Shown here one piece after another: positions 10,825 to 43,216 of a DNA stretch of 64,000 nt (positions within the stretch are counted from its first letter, which is position 1; each line of letters begins with the position of its first letter). The notes beneath the pieces are model-generated. The model saw only the letters and a list, made by a program, of their open reading frames with translations. It did no database searches and was not told the origin of the DNA. The position numbers and the translations under genes were made by a program. This stretch comes from Nitrospira sp. (GTDB lineage: Bacteria > Nitrospirota > Nitrospiria > Nitrospirales > Nitrospiraceae): assembly GCA_029194675.1 (NCBI GenBank), contig JARFXP010000002.1, forward strand, positions 682,001-746,000, given 5' to 3'.

Positions 10825-11436
10825 ATGACCATGGCGTCCCCAGTCACGTCACCTTCCGTACCATCCAAGGATTCCGCAGATGAACGGCGAGAATGGATCA
10901 GAATCGATGACCGGGTGCTGATGGAATATCGTTTGCTGACCGATACAGGAACCGTCAATTCTGTCGAGACAGGCAGCACCGCTCCGGAGATGATTTCAGC
11001 AGCAGTCACGAAGCCGACAGCGGATCTGCTCGCGCGCACTGGAGAGTCATTGATCGGCTCACCGGTGCTTCCATGGATCATGAAAGTCGATTACCTGCTC
11101 GAAGTCATCCTCAATTCCCTTGCGACGATCGCGCCGTCAAGTGTCGTCATGGCGAGGCTGACGAATGTCAATTTGAGTGGAGGAGGGGTGGGCTTCGCAT
11201 CCTCCCGCGAATTCGCTGTCGGCGACCGAATATCGGTCAAGATGATCCTGCCTCCGTTTACCCCCATCCACACCGTGGCTGAGGTTATCCGATCGACATC
11301 GGACCCCCAGGGACAGGGTTGGATTCTTGCCACGGAATTCGTCGAGATCAGTGCAAACGATCAGGAGCACCTCATCCGTCACATTCTTCTTACACAAGCC
11401 GAACGATTGAGAGCACGCCGGATTTCCGTCTTGTAG
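10825..11436 (+). CDS. PilZ domain protein
   Basis: 203 residues. An N-terminal RREWIR (RxxxR) and a later NLSGGGVGF (N-x-S-x-x-G) form the two halves of the c-di-GMP-binding PilZ signature. They are separated by about 90 residues, much more than in a minimal PilZ domain, as in PilZ proteins with an inserted or N-terminal helical part. FAVGDRISVKMILPPF is the usual PilZ beta-barrel continuation. It is probably a cytoplasmic c-di-GMP effector tied to motility. It is convergent with the ATPase gene that follows. Confidence 0.82.
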   Translation: MTMASPVTSPSVPSKDSADERREWIRIDDRVLMEYRLLTDTGTVNSVETGSTAPEMISAAVTKPTADLLARTGESLIGSPVLPWIMKVDYLLEVILNSLATIAPSSVVMARLTNVNLSGGGVGFASSREFAVGDRISVKMILPPFTPIHTVAEVIRSTSDPQGQGWILATEFVEISANDQEHLIRHILLTQAERLRARRISVL

Positions 11437-12772: not shown

Positions 12773-13090
12773 CGATCCGAGAGTGGCTGTTTGGTTCATC
12801 GGCAGAATGATTCGACTGCCGTCCTCGGCCGACAAGTCTCCAGGCCATGAGTGGAGGCCTATCTTGTCGGCGATGCCCTCCCAGGACAAGCGTTTTCCAA
12901 GCACCTCGATCATTCCTCACTCATGCAGGGAAGTCGGCAACGCATCGAGCCTTTCCGGCTCAGGTCGATCGGCGAATGTGCCGATATCCGACGAAGCGCC
13001 GAGAGGCCCTGGAGAGGTTGAACCGTCCTATCATGGACAAGACCGTGAATCATCGTGGCTGTGACGGTAGGAGAAGAAAAAGGAGGGGCT
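12773..13090 (+). other. Gene-free stretch before cheY
   Basis: No convincing coding frame was seen. A weak sigma-28-like pair occurs at 12960-12987 (TCAGGTCG, then GCCGATAT), with the same long spacing as the HTH promoter, about 100 bases before the cheY start. An AGGAGG just before 13091 is the cheY ribosome binding site. Confidence 0.35.
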
Positions 13091-13471
13091 ATGTTGGCCG
13101 ATCCAAACATGAAAATCCTTGTGGTCGATGACATGGTGACGATGAGAAGAATTGTCAAGAATATCCTGAAGCAGTTGGGATTCGCCAATATAGATGAGGC
13201 AGAAAACGGACAAGAGGCGCTGCAGAAGCTGCGAGCAGACACCTTTGGCTTCGTTGTGTCCGACTGGAACATGCCGGTCATGACTGGTATCGACATGCTC
13301 CGTGCGATTCGAGCAGACGAGAAGCTCAAAACAACGCCTGTCTTGATGGTGACCGCCGAGGCGCAACAAAGCAACTTGGTCGAGGCAGTGCAAGCGGGCG
13401 TCAACAACTATATCGTCAAGCCATTCACAGCCGAGACTTTGCAAGAAAAGATTGCGAAGATTTTCAAGTAA
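13091..13471 (+). CDS. cheY: Chemotaxis response regulator CheY
   Basis: 126 residues, a lone receiver domain. The start at 13091 is chosen over 13055 because AGGAGG sits seven bases upstream and the protein then begins MLADPNMKILVVDD as CheY proteins do. Acidic pocket D13/D14, phosphorylation site D58 in VVSDWNMP, Thr in MVTAEA and Lys in YIVKPF are all present. Phosphorylated CheY binds the flagellar switch. cheZ starts three bases after its stop, so kinase output and phosphatase are co-expressed. Confidence 0.95.
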   Translation: MLADPNMKILVVDDMVTMRRIVKNILKQLGFANIDEAENGQEALQKLRADTFGFVVSDWNMPVMTGIDMLRAIRADEKLKTTPVLMVTAEAQQSNLVEAVQAGVNNYIVKPFTAETLQEKIAKIFK

Positions 13472-13474
13472 CCC

Positions 13475-14107
13475 GTGATCAAACAGATCCGTGTTCACAC
13501 TGGGATAGGGAGCAAGGTTGTGCATAATCAAGAACATAAATTGTACGAGGAACTCGGAGCCTTGACTCGTTTTGTGGACAACGCGATGAAAGCCATTTCG
13601 GTGGTTACCCCGCAGATCATTTCCAGTAGTACCCAGCTTCCAACCGCCGCCTCCCATTTGAGCGACCTGAGCAAAATGACGGAAGATGGCACACTTGAGG
13701 TGATGCGTTTGACGGAGATGATTCAGGATCATCACGGGCAGATCGCCAAAGATCTCTCCTCGGTCGTCGAAGTCTTGCAGGCGATGGATTGCGCGACTCT
13801 TGCAGGACGTCTCCAGAACGTGACCTCTGTTCTCGCTCGGGACGGCAAATGTCTGACGGAGATCATGACCGCTCTGTCCTTTCAAGATCTGGTGGCTCAA
13901 CGGGTGAAGAAACTTGTTTCGATTCTCGACGAAGTGCAAGGAAAGCTGAAGGAGCTAGTGGTCCTGTTCGGATTTCAGGAAAGCTGCGAGGCTGCACGTG
14001 ATGCGGGCACAGCCGGACACTTACTCAAACAACTCGAGGAATCGAAAACGACCGTCATGAAGCAGAAAGTCGCCGACGACATCCTGGCTCAGTTCGGATT
14101 CAAATGA
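13475..14107 (+). CDS. cheZ: CheY-P phosphatase CheZ
   Basis: 210 residues with a GTG start three bases after cheY. ALSFQDLVAQRVKKLV holds the catalytic FQDLxxQ (Asp and Gln) of CheZ. The C-terminus VADDILAQFGFK matches the CheZ C-terminal peptide that docks onto CheY (DDLLxxLGF in enterics). The rest is long helix. It removes phosphate from CheY. A GTG near 13515 is an alternative start. Confidence 0.92.
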   Translation: MIKQIRVHTGIGSKVVHNQEHKLYEELGALTRFVDNAMKAISVVTPQIISSSTQLPTAASHLSDLSKMTEDGTLEVMRLTEMIQDHHGQIAKDLSSVVEVLQAMDCATLAGRLQNVTSVLARDGKCLTEIMTALSFQDLVAQRVKKLVSILDEVQGKLKELVVLFGFQESCEAARDAGTAGHLLKQLEESKTTVMKQKVADDILAQFGFK

Positions 14108-14119
14108 GGCGTCCGTATA

Positions 14120-14890
14120 ATGGATATTGCAACAGTACTCGGGATCGTGATCGCGTTGGGTTCCATCGTTGGAGGGCAAGTACTGGAAGGCGGCCACGTG
14201 AGTTCGATCCTGCAGCTGACTGCCTTTATCATCGTGATCGGTGGGACGGCCGGAGCGATCTGTATCCAGAATCCGCTGCCGGTCGTTATCAAGGCGGTCG
14301 GCGCCCTGTCTCTGGCGCTTTCCAGCCATCACATCGACAATAAGGGAACGATCAAGTTGATTTTGGATCTCGCAAACCTCTCGCGAAAGCAGGGGTTGCT
14401 GGCGCTCGAGGGAAAACTGAAAGACATCAAAGATCCCTTCATAAAGAAAGGAATTCAACTGATCGTTGACGGTACCGAACCAAAAGCTGTGCATGAGATT
14501 CTCGAAATTGAAGTGGAACACCATGAGGAACAAGGTATGATCGCGGCCAAGGTCTGGGAAGCAGCCGGAGGATACGCACCGACCGTCGGCATCCTCGGCG
14601 CGGTTCTGGGGTTGATTCATGTGATGGAAAATCTCGCCGATCCCTCGAAACTTGGCAGCGGGATCGCGGTCGCGTTCGTCGCCACGATCTACGGCGTGGG
14701 GGCGGCGAACCTCTTCTTCCTTCCCCTTGCCAACAAGATCAAGCTGAAGCTGAAAGAGGAAGCGGGGGGCCGCAACCTGATCATCATGGGGCTCGTTGGA
14801 CTCGCTCATGGCGAAAATCCTCGGTTGCTGCAAGAAAAGTTGGAGAGTGTCCTTCCACACAGCGAACGTACGAAAGAGACAAAGAAATGA
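14120..14890 (+). CDS. motA: Flagellar motor stator protein MotA
   Basis: 256 residues, the PomA/MotA short-form length. Four membrane segments are visible: about residues 4-22, 28-50, 150-175 and 182-205. The loop between the second and third pairs is charged (LEGKLKDIKDPFIKKGIQLI) and would contact the rotor. AAGGYAPTVGILGAVLGLIH is the third-helix signature. It works with MotB encoded just downstream. The ion type cannot be fixed from sequence alone. Confidence 0.93.
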   Translation: MDIATVLGIVIALGSIVGGQVLEGGHVSSILQLTAFIIVIGGTAGAICIQNPLPVVIKAVGALSLALSSHHIDNKGTIKLILDLANLSRKQGLLALEGKLKDIKDPFIKKGIQLIVDGTEPKAVHEILEIEVEHHEEQGMIAAKVWEAAGGYAPTVGILGAVLGLIHVMENLADPSKLGSGIAVAFVATIYGVGAANLFFLPLANKIKLKLKEEAGGRNLIIMGLVGLAHGENPRLLQEKLESVLPHSERTKETKK

Positions 14891-14970
14891 AACGTGAAAT
14901 GTGAAAAGTGAAGCGGCATGCTCCAAGCCTGGGTCGAACGTCTCACCCCTTCACGTCTAACGGTTTACGC
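14888..14970. repeat. Short-word inverted repeat between motA and motB
   Basis: The left part repeats the word gtgaaa at 7-8 base steps (AAACGTGAAATGTGAAAAGT). The right part carries the complement (cacccc ttcacg, ggttt). Similar word clusters occur at 17003-17082, 36490-36600, 29368-29440 and 39136-39182. The element covers the motA stop region and the extra upstream start of the motB frame. Confidence 0.55.
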
Positions 14971-14974
14971 GCTT

Positions 14975-15823
14975 ATGGCCAAGCACAAACACGAAGAACA
15001 CGAAAATCACGAACGCTGGCTAGTCTCGTATGCCGATTTCATTACCTTGCTGTTTGCGTTTTTCGTCGTAATGTACTCGATCTCGTCGGTCAACATCGGG
15101 AAGTACCGAACCGTCAGCGAATCGATCAAGGCGGCGTTGAATCCGCTCGCTAACCACTCGGGTGCGAATCAGGTAATCAGCGTCGGCGAAGCAAAACTAG
15201 CGCTGCAAGGGCGGAATCTAACCGACGCCAAGGAAGTCATGATTCGCCGTATCCGCCAACTGACCCAAGTCATTAAGGATAAGCAACTGAAAGACATGGT
15301 GGCGTTCGTCACCGTCGTGCAGACGATCAATGGAGACATCGTAATTACGATCCCTGATCGACTCCTGTTTAACAGTGGAGAAGCGACTGTCAGAGCGGAA
15401 GCCCTGCCTTTTCTCGAAGGATTAGGCGGAGCTATCCTGGAAATGAACCGGCATGCCCGCGTCGAAGGACATACGGATAATGTTCCAATGCGGACAGCAC
15501 AATTTCCTTCCAATTGGGAGCTGTCGGCCGCTCGGGCAGTGATGGTTGTGCGGGTATTGTCGGAACTCTACGGAGTACCGGCGGATCACCTGGCAGCCGT
15601 GGGGCATGCCGATACCAGACCCGTGACGGCCAACTCGGATGCGGAACAGAGGGCCAAGAATCGTCGAGTCGAAGTCGTCATTCTTGAGCAAGCGCCTCCG
15701 GCTCCCGTGCTCCCGTCCGAGGATGAGACGGATATATCCAAGCAATCGACAGAAGAAATGCCGCCGAGCGCATCGCAGGCTGGTCCTGAGTTGCTCGGCG
15801 AAGGCCGACTCCGGACGCCGTAG
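14975..15823 (+). CDS. motB: Flagellar motor stator protein MotB
   Basis: 282 residues from the ATG at 14975. A longer in-frame start at 14918 would add 19 residues encoded by the repeat element and is less likely. ERWLVSYADFITLLFAFFVV is the single membrane helix, with D21 as the ion-binding aspartate. The C-terminal OmpA-like peptidoglycan-binding domain has VEGHTDNVPM, NWELSAARAVMVVRVL and RAKNRRVEVVIL. A ~40-residue acidic tail follows. It anchors the stator formed with MotA. Confidence 0.93.
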   Translation: MAKHKHEEHENHERWLVSYADFITLLFAFFVVMYSISSVNIGKYRTVSESIKAALNPLANHSGANQVISVGEAKLALQGRNLTDAKEVMIRRIRQLTQVIKDKQLKDMVAFVTVVQTINGDIVITIPDRLLFNSGEATVRAEALPFLEGLGGAILEMNRHARVEGHTDNVPMRTAQFPSNWELSAARAVMVVRVLSELYGVPADHLAAVGHADTRPVTANSDAEQRAKNRRVEVVILEQAPPAPVLPSEDETDISKQSTEEMPPSASQAGPELLGEGRLRTP

Positions 15824-15922
15824 GCCTATCGCAGGTTCCCACAGGCAGCCCGACTCTCAAGTCTCGTTTAAATGCAACCGACAGTAAGTGTCAGTGACCT
15901 CAGAGAAGAGGTTTCACGATCG

Positions 15923-16225
15923 ATGACAACAGAACTGGCTGCATCTCAGACGCAACGGACTGAAGATCAGAATCCCAGACACCTCGCCCCCAAGTGCGAT
16001 CTCACCATTTTTGAGGTGGCAGAATTCAAGGAATCTCTGGTGAAGCTGTTTGCAAATGATGGGTTGGTGTCATTGGATCTCAGCGGCGTTGCGCGAGTGG
16101 ACACAGCGGCGATTCAGCTGATGCTGGCCGCGCGCAAGCAAGGACGCATGATCGTGATGGGTATCTCCGATGACCTTCAGACCAAATTGAATCAGTTGGG
16201 ATTGACCGATCCTCTGAGCGAGTGA
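15923..16225 (+). CDS. STAS domain protein
   Basis: About 100 residues from 15923; an in-frame ATG at 15872 is an alternative. LTIFEVAEFKESLVKLF and LVSLDLSGVARVDTAAIQLM fit the STAS/MlaB-like fold. The usual phosphorylated Ser of anti-sigma antagonists is replaced by Thr (VDTAAIQ, T61). Small STAS proteins of this kind stand just upstream of cheA in several phyla. Its partner is unknown; a link to the chemotaxis kinase or to the partner-switching genes at 30-33 kb is inferred. Confidence 0.8.
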   Translation: MTTELAASQTQRTEDQNPRHLAPKCDLTIFEVAEFKESLVKLFANDGLVSLDLSGVARVDTAAIQLMLAARKQGRMIVMGISDDLQTKLNQLGLTDPLSE

Positions 16226-16259: not shown

Positions 16260-16538
16260 GTGACGGCGATGCAGTTTCAGGATATCACGCGGCAAAAGCT
16301 GGAACACGTTGGGCGAGCGTTGGATCGATGGAGCCGGCATCTCCTGACGCTGATGAAGGGACCCGAGGACGACAGTGGGAAGCAGGAGGTGGCTGCCCTG
16401 GAACTGATTAAGCAGCACTATACCATGGAGGAGGAGGAGGAACGTCGCGTGCATGCGACGGCGGTCGATCCTGATTACGGAGAACCGGTGCCCATGGACA
16501 TGTCGAGCAACGAACCCGATCTCGTCGCGCTCTGTTAG
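16260..16538 (+). CDS. Short CheZ-like protein
   Basis: 92 residues from a GTG; the ATG at 16269 also works. MQFQDITRQKLEHVGRALD reproduces the CheZ catalytic helix (FQDxxxQ). The frame is open upstream to 16218 and reads LSKIVTAMQ, also CheZ-like, without a further start codon. The protein lacks the long N-terminal helix and the CheY-docking C-terminus of CheZ. It could be a minimal phosphatase, a docking protein or a decayed cheZ. It is followed by the second cheY and cheA, which argues for a link with CheY2. Confidence 0.6.
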   Translation: MTAMQFQDITRQKLEHVGRALDRWSRHLLTLMKGPEDDSGKQEVAALELIKQHYTMEEEEERRVHATAVDPDYGEPVPMDMSSNEPDLVALC

Positions 16539-16593
16539 AGCGAAGTCCGATGTTACTGCAATAGGATTCTGTCGCCGATGTCGGAGGGTCGCC

Positions 16594-16965
16594 ATGGGCA
16601 AGACTGCGCTGATCGTCGATGATTCACCCACTATGCGTCAGCTGGTGTCGTCTACCTTGACGAATGCCGGTTTTACCGTCGTCGAAGCAGAGCATGGGAA
16701 AGATGCTGTAAATAAAGTTGCAGCAGAGCCCAAGCTGGATATCATCGTGACCGATCTGAATATGCCGGAGATGGACGGGATCACGCTCATCAAAGCATTA
16801 CGGAAATTGAACGCGTTCAGATTCACACCGATCCTCATGCTCACGACCGAGTCAGCGGCTGACAAGAAACAGGCAGGAAAAGAAGCCGGTGCGACGGGCT
16901 GGATCGTCAAACCGTTCAACCCGGACATCCTGCTGAAAACGATCGCCAAGGTATTGCCGGTATAG
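16594..16965 (+). CDS. CheY-like response regulator
   Basis: 123 residues. The start at 16594 is supported by GGAGGG about six bases upstream and the sequence MGKTALIVDDSPTMRQ. Phosphorylation site is D54 in IVTDLNMPEMDG; the Thr (LMLTTES) and Lys (WIVKPF) switch residues are present. It is closest in style to the CheY proteins encoded beside cheA in Geobacter-type clusters. It differs from the cheY at 13091, so two CheY proteins may compete for CheA phosphate. Confidence 0.93.
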   Translation: MGKTALIVDDSPTMRQLVSSTLTNAGFTVVEAEHGKDAVNKVAAEPKLDIIVTDLNMPEMDGITLIKALRKLNAFRFTPILMLTTESAADKKQAGKEAGATGWIVKPFNPDILLKTIAKVLPV

Positions 16966-17002
16966 CGGCGCGAACGTGCCTTTCGAGAAGCGTTCGCGTC
17001 GG

Positions 17003-17082
17003 AGTTTCAAGTTGAAAGTTCCAAGTTTCACGATGGAACCAGAAACCTGAGACTTGAAATCCGAAACGTGAAACCTGCCAAC
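17003..17082. repeat. Short-word inverted repeat before cheA
   Basis: A run of near-copies of agtttcaagt / gaaagttcc / aagtttcacg followed by the complementary words gaaacctgag / acttgaaatc / cgtgaaacct. The two halves can pair imperfectly. It belongs with the word clusters at 14888, 29368, 36490 and 39136. It lies in the 172-base gap between cheY2 and cheA. Confidence 0.6.
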
Positions 17083-17137
17083 GAAACGACGCACGTCTCG
17101 CTGAGTCAAACGGGCCTTCGGAAGGACAAAGCAGAAG

Positions 17138-19306
17138 ATGAGCAACGAGTTCGCACAATTTCAGGACGCGTTCTTTGAGGAGGCTGCCGAGCATCTCGCG
17201 GTCGTCGAAGAAGGGCTGCTGGAATTGGAACAGCATCCAGAGGATCTCGACCTGCTCAATAAGGTCTTTCGCTCGGCCCATTCGATCAAAGGCACAGCCG
17301 GCATGTTCGGCTTTCATGCGGTTGCGGAATTTACCCACAAGATGGAGACGTTGCTGGATTTACTGCGGAATGGGCGGAGGGCGGTTTCTCCCTCCATCGC
17401 GGGTCTCCTCTTAAGGGCAACCGATTGTTTGAAAGCGTTGATCCAATCAACGAAGTCAGGCGCGGCAATTGACGACGAAACAGTCCAGAGACTCGCTGGA
17501 GAGTTGGCCTCATCGAGAGCGTCGGACTCGCAGGCGTCGGCAGTGAATGTGAATAGGAAAAGTGCGCAACCTGTTTCAGACGAGAACTGTGGTGGAGATC
17601 AGACTTTTGTGATCAAGTGGACCCCTCCGGAATGGCTATTTCAACGAGGGCTCGACCCGCTTCAAACGTTCAAGGAACTAAAAAGCATTGGTGTCCTGAC
17701 CGGAGTCACGCTCGATATGTCTCGACTACCGGGTCTTGACTGCATCGATCCGGAGACCTGCTACCTGTCATGGACCATGCAACTGACAACGAGCAAGGAT
17801 CAGAAGGTAATCGAGTCCGTCTTTGAATTTGTCAGAGGAGACAGCGCGTTATCAATTCGGCCGATTGAAGGCGCGGGAGACCGATCGCAGAACCTTGTAA
17901 CGGAGGCAGGCTTCTCTGTCGAACCAGAAGACCCCAAACCGCTCGGGCAAATTCTCATGGAAGGCGGCTTGGTCTCTCCCGACGAGCTTGATCACGCTCT
18001 GGGACAACAAAAGCGGGTAGGCGAAATTCTTGTCGAGCAAAATGTGGTCACCCAGCAACAGGTCGAGCAGGCGCTGCAGAAACAACGTCAGCAGGAATCT
18101 GTCGCGCAGGCCAAAAAAACCGATGCCACATCCATCCGCGTTGATACGGCAAAGATTGACAAGCTTATCAACTTGGTGGGTGAGCTGATGATCACCCAGT
18201 CTATGTTGAGCGATTTGGGGGCTCGATTCGAGATGCGCCATTTGCCGGTGTTCTTGGAGCGCATGGTGGAACTGGAACGGAACACTCGAGAAATTCAAGA
18301 ACGTGTCATGAGCATTCGCATGTTGCCCATCGGTACCGTATTTGCCAGGTTTCCTCGGCTTGTGCGAGACCTTTCGACCAAAACAGGCAAGAAAATCCAA
18401 CTCATCCTGTCCGGAGAAGAGACGGAATTGGACAAGACGGTCATCGAATCCATCGGCGATCCGCTCATACACTTGGTAAGGAACTCGGCCGATCACGGAT
18501 TGGAGACTCCGGATGAGCGATTGGACAATAATAAGCAAGAGGTCGGGACGATCCGGCTCAGCGCGTTCCATGAGGGCGGAAATATCTGCATCACCGTGGA
18601 AGACGATGGGCGTGGATTGGACCGCGACAAGATTTTGGCGAAGGCGAATAAGCAAGGCTTGATCAGCGAGAACGATAACCTGACTGACGATCAAATTTGG
18701 CCGTTGATCTTCAAGCCAGGGTTTTCCACCGCGGAGACAATAACGGACGTGTCCGGTCGTGGTGTGGGTATGGATGTGGTAAAGCGAAACATCGAAAGTC
18801 TGGGAGGGACGGTCGGTATCAAAACCACCAAAGGCAAGGGTGCCACGTTCATACTCAAGCTGCCGCTGACGTTGGCGATCATTGACGGCATGACGGTGCG
18901 GGTCGGCAAGGAAACCTACATCGTGCCGCTGCTGTCCATACTCGAGTCGATCCAGCCCAAAGCCGAATTGACCAAGACCGTGGTCGGCAAGGGCGAACTC
19001 ATTAATGTTCGAAGTACGTACATCCCGATAGTGCGATTGTACGAAGTCTTCGCGAGCGAGCCCCAGTATACGGATCCCAAGGAGGCAATTCTGCTCATTC
19101 TGGAGACGGAAGGGGAACGGGTGGCGATTATGGTGGATGAAATTCTTGGACAACAGCAGGTTGTCATCAAAAGCATGGAGCAGAATTTTCGCAAGGTCGA
19201 AGGCATCGCCGGCGCAACGATTCTTGGAGACGGCAGGGTCGGGTTCATTGTCGATGTGCGTGGCGTGCTTGAAATCGCTCGCCACGGCAGCCCGGTTGCG
19301 GCGTAA
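17138..19306 (+). CDS. cheA: Chemotaxis histidine kinase CheA
   Basis: 722 residues. Hpt domain at 1-105 with H48 in RSAHSIKGTAG. A P2-like domain at about 155-245 is of the Geobacter type. Dimerisation starts at about 330 (DKLINLVGELMITQSML). The ATPase has HLVRNSADHGLE, DDGRGLD and SGRGVGMDVVKRNIESLGG, and a CheW-like P5 domain closes the protein. Unusually, residues 268-316 hold two 24-residue MshEN-like motifs (LGQILMEGGLVSPDEL; RVGEILVEQNVVTQQQ), a fold that binds c-di-GMP in MshE. CheA receives receptor signals through CheW and phosphorylates CheY and CheB. Confidence 0.95.
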   Translation: MSNEFAQFQDAFFEEAAEHLAVVEEGLLELEQHPEDLDLLNKVFRSAHSIKGTAGMFGFHAVAEFTHKMETLLDLLRNGRRAVSPSIAGLLLRATDCLKALIQSTKSGAAIDDETVQRLAGELASSRASDSQASAVNVNRKSAQPVSDENCGGDQTFVIKWTPPEWLFQRGLDPLQTFKELKSIGVLTGVTLDMSRLPGLDCIDPETCYLSWTMQLTTSKDQKVIESVFEFVRGDSALSIRPIEGAGDRSQNLVTEAGFSVEPEDPKPLGQILMEGGLVSPDELDHALGQQKRVGEILVEQNVVTQQQVEQALQKQRQQESVAQAKKTDATSIRVDTAKIDKLINLVGELMITQSMLSDLGARFEMRHLPVFLERMVELERNTREIQERVMSIRMLPIGTVFARFPRLVRDLSTKTGKKIQLILSGEETELDKTVIESIGDPLIHLVRNSADHGLETPDERLDNNKQEVGTIRLSAFHEGGNICITVEDDGRGLDRDKILAKANKQGLISENDNLTDDQIWPLIFKPGFSTAETITDVSGRGVGMDVVKRNIESLGGTVGIKTTKGKGATFILKLPLTLAIIDGMTVRVGKETYIVPLLSILESIQPKAELTKTVVGKGELINVRSTYIPIVRLYEVFASEPQYTDPKEAILLILETEGERVAIMVDEILGQQQVVIKSMEQNFRKVEGIAGATILGDGRVGFIVDVRGVLEIARHGSPVAA

Positions 19307-41197: not shown

Positions 41198-43054
41198 TTA
41201 TTCGACGTCGATTTCCTGTTGAGTGATCCGCATGACTTCTTCCAGCGTGGTATGGCCTTGAACGACTCGCTCAGCCCCTTCCTGCTTTAACGTCACCATG
41301 CCTTTGGCGATCGCGGCCTGTTTGATGGCAGTGGAGTCGGCTTTGCTTCCGATGAGCCGCCTGATCTCGTCATCCAGTACCATGAGCTCAAAAATACCTG
41401 TACGGCCACGATAGCCGGTTTGAGAACAGGCTGCACAGCCGGCTCCTCGGTAAAGGGTGACGTTGGAACCAGGCGCGACGTCCAAGCGGCCGAGTTCTGC
41501 TTCGCTCGGACGATAGGGGCGTTTGCAGTCAGGACAGATCCTTCTCAACAACCGTTGGGCCAGGACGGCAACGACCGATGAAGCCACCAGAAAGGGCTCG
41601 ATTCCCATATCGATCAGGCGTGTGGGGGCACTGGCGGCGTCGTTGGTATGTAGGGTGGAAAACACCAGATGTCCGGTGAGCGAGGCATGAATCGCGATCT
41701 CCGCCGTTTCGCGGTCGCGAATCTCGCCGATCATGATGACGTCGGGGTCTTGCCGGAGAATCGAGCGGAGTCCGGCGGCGAACGACAAATTGATCTTGGG
41801 GTTCACTTGCATTTGGCCGATGCCGAGCAGTTGGTATTCCACCGGATCTTCGACCGTGATGATATTCTTGTCCGGCGCATTGATGTGGCTCAACGCGGCA
41901 TAGAGGGTCGTGGTTTTGCCGCTTCCGGTCGGACCGGTGACGAGAATAATTCCGTGTGCGAGTTGAATCAGCTGATGGATCACGGCGAGCCGTTCTTTCG
42001 AGAAGCCCATTTCCGAAAGATTCAGGAGGCGATTTTCTTTCTCCAGCAATCGCAATACGACCCGCTCGCCATGGGAGGTGGGCAAGACGGAGACCCGCAG
42101 GTCGACGTCTTTCCCGGAGGTCCTGATGCCGAACCGACCGTCCTGCGGTAATCGCTTCTCAGCAATGTTGAGACCGGCCATGATCTTCAGCCGCGCGATA
42201 ATGCTGGCTTGCAAGTGCTTGGGTGGGGTGAGGACGGGGTAGAGCACGCCGTCGATACGATATCGGACCACCAGCCCCCGCTCGAACGACTCGAAATGGA
42301 TGTCGCTCGCCCGTTGCCGAACCGCCTGAAACAGCACCGAGTTGACCAATCGGATGATCGGAGCCTCGTCGGTGGCGTCCAGCAAATCTTGCGGCTCGTC
42401 GAGCTCATGCGCGAGCTGGTCGAGGCTCTGGTTTGCCGCAATGTCTTCCATGACCTGTTCCGCGCCGGCCGGGTTGGCGATTTCGTCGTAGGCCCGGTTC
42501 AAGCTGGCCAGCAGAACGACACTGGTGGTCAAGACCGGTTTGATCGGTTTGCTCAAGAGCAAACGGAGGTCGTCAAGCGCGACCGTTTCCAGAGGATCGG
42601 TCGATGCGGTCAGAATGGCTCCTTCCTCATATCGAAGCGGCAGGACGCGATAGCGTCGACAAAATGCGATGGGTACCTTCTTGATCAGCTCGTGGTCCAC
42701 ATGGGTGTTGTCGAGATGGGGCATCCAAGACATCTCAAATTGTTGGGCGAGAGCCTCCAGCAATTGCTCTTCTCTCAGCGAGCGCAAATGCAGCAGGATT
42801 TCTCCCAGCAGACCGCCTTTCTCCCGCTGGTAGGCTAAGGCCTCCTCGAGCTTTGAATCCAAAAGGTTGAACTTTTGCGCGAGGATTTGTCCCAATAGAG
42901 GGCGATGAACCGTAGGATTGGACTGATCGTTGTCGAGTCGATCCGACACTTTTCCCAGACCTTTCATGAATAGGGACGAGCGCCATCGCAGTCCTTTCTC
43001 CGATACGGCTCGACCCCGGTCGTAAAGATACTCTCCCTTCCGATGGACTGGCAA
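41198..43054 (-). CDS. gspE: Type II secretion ATPase GspE
   Basis: 618 residues from a TTG with GAGG five bases upstream; ATG 42967 is an alternative 29 codons in. Residues 53-76 and 82-105 are two MshEN-like motifs with a 5-residue spacer (LLGQILAQKFNLLDSKLEEA; LLGEILLHLRSLREEQLLEA), though the leading Arg is Leu. The ATPase has Walker A GPTGSGKTTT, Asp box and Walker B (IMIGEIRDRETAEIA), and the four-Cys zinc motif CPDC...CAAC. It powers pseudopilus assembly at the cytoplasmic face. Confidence 0.94.
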   Translation of the reverse strand: MPVHRKGEYLYDRGRAVSEKGLRWRSSLFMKGLGKVSDRLDNDQSNPTVHRPLLGQILAQKFNLLDSKLEEALAYQREKGGLLGEILLHLRSLREEQLLEALAQQFEMSWMPHLDNTHVDHELIKKVPIAFCRRYRVLPLRYEEGAILTASTDPLETVALDDLRLLLSKPIKPVLTTSVVLLASLNRAYDEIANPAGAEQVMEDIAANQSLDQLAHELDEPQDLLDATDEAPIIRLVNSVLFQAVRQRASDIHFESFERGLVVRYRIDGVLYPVLTPPKHLQASIIARLKIMAGLNIAEKRLPQDGRFGIRTSGKDVDLRVSVLPTSHGERVVLRLLEKENRLLNLSEMGFSKERLAVIHQLIQLAHGIILVTGPTGSGKTTTLYAALSHINAPDKNIITVEDPVEYQLLGIGQMQVNPKINLSFAAGLRSILRQDPDVIMIGEIRDRETAEIAIHASLTGHLVFSTLHTNDAASAPTRLIDMGIEPFLVASSVVAVLAQRLLRRICPDCKRPYRPSEAELGRLDVAPGSNVTLYRGAGCAACSQTGYRGRTGIFELMVLDDEIRRLIGSKADSTAIKQAAIAKGMVTLKQEGAERVVQGHTTLEEVMRITQQEIDVE

Positions 43055-43216
43055 GGACGCCTCGAATTCTTAACGCAATGGTGAACTCTTGGGTGTCCTA
43101 GACCGTGAGTATTCCTTGCCGTCAACCCGCTATTGCAGGAGTCGATTCCTCATTCATCGAGGGGTGGTGGCTCAAACGACCACGGAGATTGTCGAGGGAG
43201 AACGCCGACCAGGCTT

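Follow-up and report, generated by a model that had tools for sequence, protein, structure and literature searches.

The flagellar CheA kinase encoded in a stretch of 64,000 nucleotides from a Nitrospira genome, referred to here as the window, raises the question of whether a second messenger, c-di-GMP, can be sensed by a domain within the chemotaxis kinase itself. The source genome has a size of 5.2 Mb and is 99% complete, and almost all of the closest relatives of the CheA carry the label Nitrospira or Nitrospirota. The cheA gene is located in a flagellar and chemotaxis block, which also includes genes for a PilZ protein and a ParA-like protein (Table 1). In a sequence-only reading of the window it had been proposed that two 24-residue motifs of the MshEN type, at residues 268-291 and 293-316, lie between the P2-like domain and the dimerisation domain of CheA, and that a PilZ gene is present about 6 kb upstream. 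The position of the motifs was confirmed by the Pfam domains and by a predicted domain covering residues 155-242, and the PilZ gene by its Pfam match, at a distance of 5.7 kb upstream of cheA.

The Hpt, H-kinase_dim, HATPase_c and CheW domains were identified in this order in CheA, all above the Pfam cut-offs, while the P2-like domain has no Pfam match. The phospho-accepting histidine of P1 is most likely H48, which is invariant across 84 CheAs. A CheA dimerisation domain above the cut-off occurs in only one other protein of the genome (L010), and no such motifs were found in the stretch of L010 read before that domain. Upstream of cheA, at 16990-17085, a dispersed repeat rich in GTTTC/GAAAC is present. 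In some Nitrospira (L047, L048 and L019), DNA of a similar kind seems to be translated as part of the disordered CheA linker before motif 1, where GAGTTTCAGGTTTC ... GAAACCCGAAACC gives FQVSS...HETRN stretches.

Table 1. Features of cheA and of its neighbourhood in the window
Feature	Position	Strand	Description
PilZ-domain protein	10825..11436	+	Pfam PilZ 3.1e-10; RREWIR (RxxxR) and NLSGGG ([D/N]xSxxG)
Response regulator	13055-13471	+	Pfam Response_reg
cheZ	13475-14107	+	Pfam CheZ
motA and motB	14120..15823	+	Pfam MotA_ExbB, MotB_plug, OmpA
STAS protein	15872-16225	+	Pfam STAS
Second response regulator	frame 16453-16965	+	Pfam Response_reg
cheA	17138..19306	+	722 aa; order P1(Hpt)-P2-like-MshEN_N-like tandem-P3-P4-P5
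P1 Hpt helical bundle	17165..17521	+	residues 10-128; Pfam Hpt match 10-96
P2-like domain	17597..17866	+	residues 154-243; predicted beta-alpha-beta-beta-alpha-beta, pLDDT mostly >90
MshEN motif 1, PLGQILMEGGLVSPDELDHALGQQ	17939..18010	+	residues 268-291; NF053729; predicted helices 269-275 and 281-289
Spacer K292, one residue	18011..18013	+	from sequence; five residues in VcMshE
MshEN motif 2, RVGEILVEQNVVTQQQVEQALQKQ	18014..18085	+	residues 293-316; NF053729; predicted helices 294-300 and 306-327
Last helix of tandem	18053..18118	+	residues 306-327; AF2 prediction; extends towards P3
P3 dimerisation domain	18128..18316	+	residues 331-393; Pfam H-kinase_dim
P4 ATPase domain	18317..18871	+	about residues 394-578; Pfam HATPase_c 443-578
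P5 CheW-like domain	18887..19273	+	residues 584-712; Pfam CheW

Both of the proposed motifs were found, though the second fits the pattern less strictly than the first, with Val at positions 2 and 17. The one-residue spacer, the Pro in place of Arg at position 1 of motif 1 and the Asn in place of Gly at position 10 of motif 2 are as the sequence-only reading had them. In common with the MshEN_N domain of VcMshE (5htl; PMC5013675), the CheA tandem has two 24-residue motifs, four predicted helices, and Gly3, Leu21 and Gln24 in both motifs, at 32% identity within the aligned part. The two differ in the spacer (one residue in CheA, five in VcMshE), in the Pro for Arg of motif 1, in the two Val residues and the Asn of motif 2, in the MshEN_C sub-domain, which CheA lacks, and in the host protein, which is a kinase in the one case and an ATPase in the other. 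The stacking residue at position 1 is Arg in motif 2 and Pro in motif 1. Pro at this position falls within the relaxed pattern [RKPN] given by Wang et al. (PMC5013675), but PMC11731258 studied R, K and L there, and not Pro. Position 10 can be Asn, Lys or a different residue in true MshEN domains, too.

The family assignment was addressed by profile searches. The NCBI curated model NF053729 (c-di-GMP_motif, MshE-related), which has 53 positions and a curated cut-off of 38 bits, matches CheA residues 268-316 over its full length (model positions 1-53 of 53) with 43.5 bits and an E-value of 2e-11. The isolated CheA fragment was scored with 53.1 bits, and 68 of 68 CheA fragments were matched at an E-value of 0.001 or better. 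In a genome-wide search with the same model, the CheA frame reached 53.4 bits, above every ATPase of the same genome. The window also encodes a GspE/PilB-type ATPase (41201-43069, minus strand), which scored 42.5 bits, below the CheA frame; its motifs at 42740-42895 have the canonical five-residue spacer, with Phe and Arg at position 10. When a profile of 68 CheA tandems was compared with the PDB, PilF (1.5e-30), PilB (1.5e-10) and MshE 5htl (3.9e-10) were retrieved, and nothing outside this family was better than 0.14. A profile built from non-CheA MshEN domains scored the CheA fragment with 37.7 bits, against a maximum of 11.4 bits among 5,000 shuffles; its members had been gathered with the CheA profile, so that the two profile tests are not fully independent. 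Over the reading frames of the window, only CheA and the GspE/PilB-type ATPase were significant with this profile.

The profile check suggested in the sequence-only reading supports the proposal when the appropriate model is used: NF053729 matches above its cut-off (43.5 versus 38 bits), whereas Pfam PF05157 gives no match to CheA. In true MshEN proteins, position 1 of the PF05157 model falls immediately behind Gln24 of motif 2, and NF053729 and PF05157 match adjoining segments; PF05157 covers MshEN_C, which is absent from CheA. Since the model begins past motif 2, it cannot test the CheA tandem, and it was set aside as unsuitable for this purpose. The Pfam model that bears the name MshEN therefore excludes the c-di-GMP motif, and Pfam-based MshEN surveys miss N-only forms such as the one of CheA. 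DUF4388 (PF14332) was rejected as the family, with 18.4 bits in the protein and at most 24 in the fragment where 25 are needed, and with a match to part of the model only. A tblastn search of plasmids with the CheA fragment of the window gave one weak match, a GspE with an E-value of 10, so a single-sequence search is too weak for this tandem. A hand-written, idealised CheA-like consensus finds MshEN proteins among plasmids; it is not a natural sequence and is used as supporting evidence only. It is close to certain that the CheA tandem is homologous to MshEN, and, to judge from its sequence, the segment of residues 268-316 is a compact MshEN_N variant and not the canonical 53-residue form.

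The fold was predicted with AlphaFold2 without templates, from an alignment of 68 fragments; AlphaFold2 itself has seen MshEN structures. The fragment model consists of four helices (fragment positions 12-18, 24-32, 37-43 and 49-72) at moderate confidence, with a mean pLDDT of 73, about 82 in the core, and a pTM of 0.49. For full-length CheA the same four helices were predicted (269-275, 281-289, 294-300 and 306-327; pLDDT 83), flanked by disordered linkers, and at a pTM of 0.56 the relative placing of the domains is uncertain. In a Foldseek search with the fragment model, the best 15 matches were all N-domains of MshE, PilF or PilB, most of them c-di-GMP-bound; the best match, 5htl, had a probability of 1.00 and an E-value of 0.08, the E-values alone being not significant. 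By VIA-align, model residues 7-62 superpose on residues 5-64 of 5htl_A with a Z of 7.7 (56 residues at 1.9 A, 32% identity), which for a helical bundle does not settle the matter. Of ten family rows, nine had Z values of 6.4-7.7 and one apo PilF chain 4.1, while the first unrelated row had 3.5. Relative to MshE, four residues are missing from the loop that joins helices 2 and 3; these helices stay separate in the model. The structure prediction thus agrees with the earlier proposal, with c-di-GMP-bound MshE (5htl) and PilF as best matches, and the tandem is compatible with the MshEN_N fold, in which two helix-turn-helix hairpins would pack as a four-helix bundle. Together with NF053729 and the conservation of ligand residues, the predicted fold supports the presence of an MshEN-type domain in CheA.

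The ligand residues were compared with domains of known behaviour. In MshE, Gln24 contacts the ribose and phosphate (PMC5013675), and no structural reason is apparent for its conservation in CheA other than the ligand. For GSPII-A of PilF, which does not bind c-di-GMP, it was shown that binding required Q24 to be restored in both motifs and R1 in motif 2, that high affinity needed G3 of motif 2 as well, and that a turn of the N-terminal helix, which blocks the site, and contacts between sub-domains had to be removed too (PMC12002112). All four positions missing in GSPII-A (the two Q24, and R1 and G3 of motif 2) are canonical in CheA. PMC5013675 gives eight changes for XpsE, a non-binder, and CheA has none of them. 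The Val that replaces Leu17 in motif 2 of CheA is a mild change; Ile in place of Leu at both such sites of PilF had a cost of 2.4-fold (PMC12002112). The isolated N sub-domain of MshE was shown to bind c-di-GMP with a KD of 0.35 uM (PMC5013675), so the missing C sub-domain of CheA is no obstacle to binding. The source genome codes for three GGDEF domains, two of them with an intact GGDEF sequence, and for 27 PilZ domains; c-di-GMP is therefore very probably made. Other genomes of the genus contain 4 to 9 GGDEF domains, except for one small genome with none.

The tandem is kept in every Nitrospira CheA orthologue checked and in many other Nitrospirota CheAs. Among the Nitrospira orthologues, pairwise identity is 75% in the tandem, 74% in P1, 61% in P2 and 16% in the linker before the tandem. 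Gly3 and Gln24 are almost invariant in both motifs, even though the linkers on either side can scarcely be aligned. In 68 Nitrospirota CheAs, which were picked for showing the tandem, so that the figures describe tandem-bearing CheAs, weighted conservation in motif 1 and motif 2, respectively, is 1.00 and 0.96 for G3, 1.00 and 0.96 for L6, 0.96 and 0.55 for G10, 1.00 and 0.85 for L21, and 0.89 and 1.00 for Q24. A few CheAs lack the tandem (L135-L138, L148, L149 and L182), and in one Nitrospirota CheA (L129) it is decayed, with Leu-Gly lost or altered in both motifs and the final Gln kept. The family f18 Nitrospirota CheAs examined have no tandem despite many GGDEF proteins in the genome. As GGDEF was identified in 195 of 198 Nitrospirota genomes, its presence was discarded as uninformative for the presence of the tandem.

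The spacer comprises one residue in 111 of 137 retrieved CheA sequences, many of which are closely related and some present twice, and 2 to 18 residues in the others. In the aligned non-CheA MshEN domains it comprises five residues in 28 of 28 cases and one residue in none. Among plasmids, few short-looking matches were found outside CheA, and none was clearly short. A second CheA type of about 640 aa in Nitrospirota, mostly in the Nitrospira family (L139-L144, L147), has a tandem with spacers of 4 to 8 residues. Two plasmid-borne gammaproteobacterial CheAs, from Pseudomonas sp. HR96 and Aeromonas sp. BC14 (L180 and L181), have comparable motifs, separated by 12 and 9 residues, and are encoded in clusters of the order MCP-response regulator-STAS-CheA.

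The combination of CheA and MshEN is already known, as CheA is named among the proteins with MshEN in the main text of Wang et al. 2016 (PMC5013675), which describes no test of a CheA. In our literature search, no paper was found that reports c-di-GMP binding by a CheA or tests a CheA-MshEN protein. What is added here is the compact spacer, the conservation through the genus and much of the phylum, and the argument from ligand residues. Other known systems resemble the CheA tandem in part. For the c-di-GMP-activated glycosyltransferase NfrB/NrfB, the NfrB model matches the CheA segment weakly (4.4e-5), and NrfB is found among plasmids with the idealised CheA-like tandem; its output domain is a glycosyltransferase. 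GSPII-A, -B and -C of Thermus PilF have the fold predicted for CheA and a longer spacer; GSPII-B accepts Lys or Leu at position 1, and GSPII-A is the non-binder described above. PilZ chemoreceptors, MapZ on CheR1 and YcgR at the motor link c-di-GMP to swimming, as is proposed here for CheA, but they act on receptors, methylation or the motor and not via a domain within CheA.

The homology, the compatible fold prediction, the conserved ligand residues, the place in CheA and the presence of GGDEF proteins form the basis of the explanation favoured here. The homology is observed, and we consider it rather probable that c-di-GMP is the ligand of this compact MshEN_N domain in the main flagellar CheA and that the domain tunes the kinase, on which c-di-GMP would then probably act directly. 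The tandem would be an MshEN_N domain without C sub-domain, inserted between P2 and P3, in which the two helix-turn-helix motifs form a four-helix bundle with a joint site for one c-di-GMP. Each motif would take one guanine via the Gly3 backbone and leucine clusters, while the two Gln24 residues would hold ribose and phosphate. Binding between the motifs may order or compact the tandem. Its last helix is predicted to continue towards the dimerisation helices; through this helix and the P2-P3 connection, the ligand would probably alter the delivery of P1/P2 to P4 or the setting of P3, and in this way autophosphorylation and the level of CheY-P. As a guess, high c-di-GMP would alter the kinase output so that directed swimming is damped. 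Against this explanation speak the Pro1 of motif 1, which lies outside the tested set of R, K and L, the spacer of one residue instead of five, the moderate confidence of the fold model, and GSPII-A, which shows that an MshEN fold can exist without binding. The Nitrospirota CheAs without tandem in genomes rich in GGDEF proteins also count against it. A bolder reading is possible and is put forward tentatively: the MshEN with one-residue spacer would be an ancient and conserved way for c-di-GMP to enter the flagellar chemotaxis kinase of Nitrospirota and to switch its output directly, maybe in a pocket formed jointly by both subunits of the CheA dimer, so that c-di-GMP would act on the kinase in addition to receptors or the motor.

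Among the alternatives, the one that survives best is that the tandem is a ligand-free relic or a docking platform, which has the MshEN fold and binds a protein such as a PilZ adaptor, CheW or a polar landmark in place of c-di-GMP. GSPII-A keeps the fold without binding and was proposed by the authors to be a landing pad (PMC12002112), the N-domain of Xanthomonas PilB, solved with PilZ, is among the structural matches (7lkm, 7lkn), and the genome has 27 PilZ domains, with one encoded close upstream of cheA; the Pro of motif 1 also fits such a loss. However, Gln24, which serves the ligand rather than the core, and Gly3 are conserved as listed above, the latter nearly invariantly, whereas several such positions have been lost in GSPII-A and XpsE. 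We regard this alternative as unlikely.

Distinctly less probable is a c-di-GMP-binding domain that places or clusters CheA without tuning the kinase activity. The position between P2 and P3 alone does not show catalytic coupling and the linkers on both sides are disordered in the model, but the last helix is predicted to extend towards P3. Slightly below this we place a pocket bridging the two protomers, in which the one-residue spacer blocks the intramolecular arrangement and c-di-GMP is held between motif 1 of one CheA subunit and motif 2 of its partner subunit. The tandem directly precedes the dimerisation helices, its spacer is four residues shorter than that of MshE, and according to Wang et al. 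MshEN_N can homodimerise (PMC5013675); the monomer model, however, is interrupted between helix 2 and helix 3 and can be superposed on 5htl, so that one chain seems compatible, and CheAs with spacers of 2 to 18 residues keep the same motifs, which an intramolecular pocket explains simply. A chance likeness of a helical linker rich in Glu and Gln, for which the linker composition and the single weak plasmid match of the window fragment might speak, is refuted by the NF053729 score and the 5,000 shuffles, with the reciprocal profile and the conservation also contrary to it.

Across the whole nitrifier genus and beyond, CheA has retained the domain, whose ligand residues are known from structures, and annotation by Pfam alone misses such a receptor, since PF05157 does not contain the c-di-GMP motif. 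If the favoured explanation of a kinase-tuning c-di-GMP receptor is true, the gain or bias of the entire chemotaxis pathway would be under the control of a biofilm signal at its central kinase.
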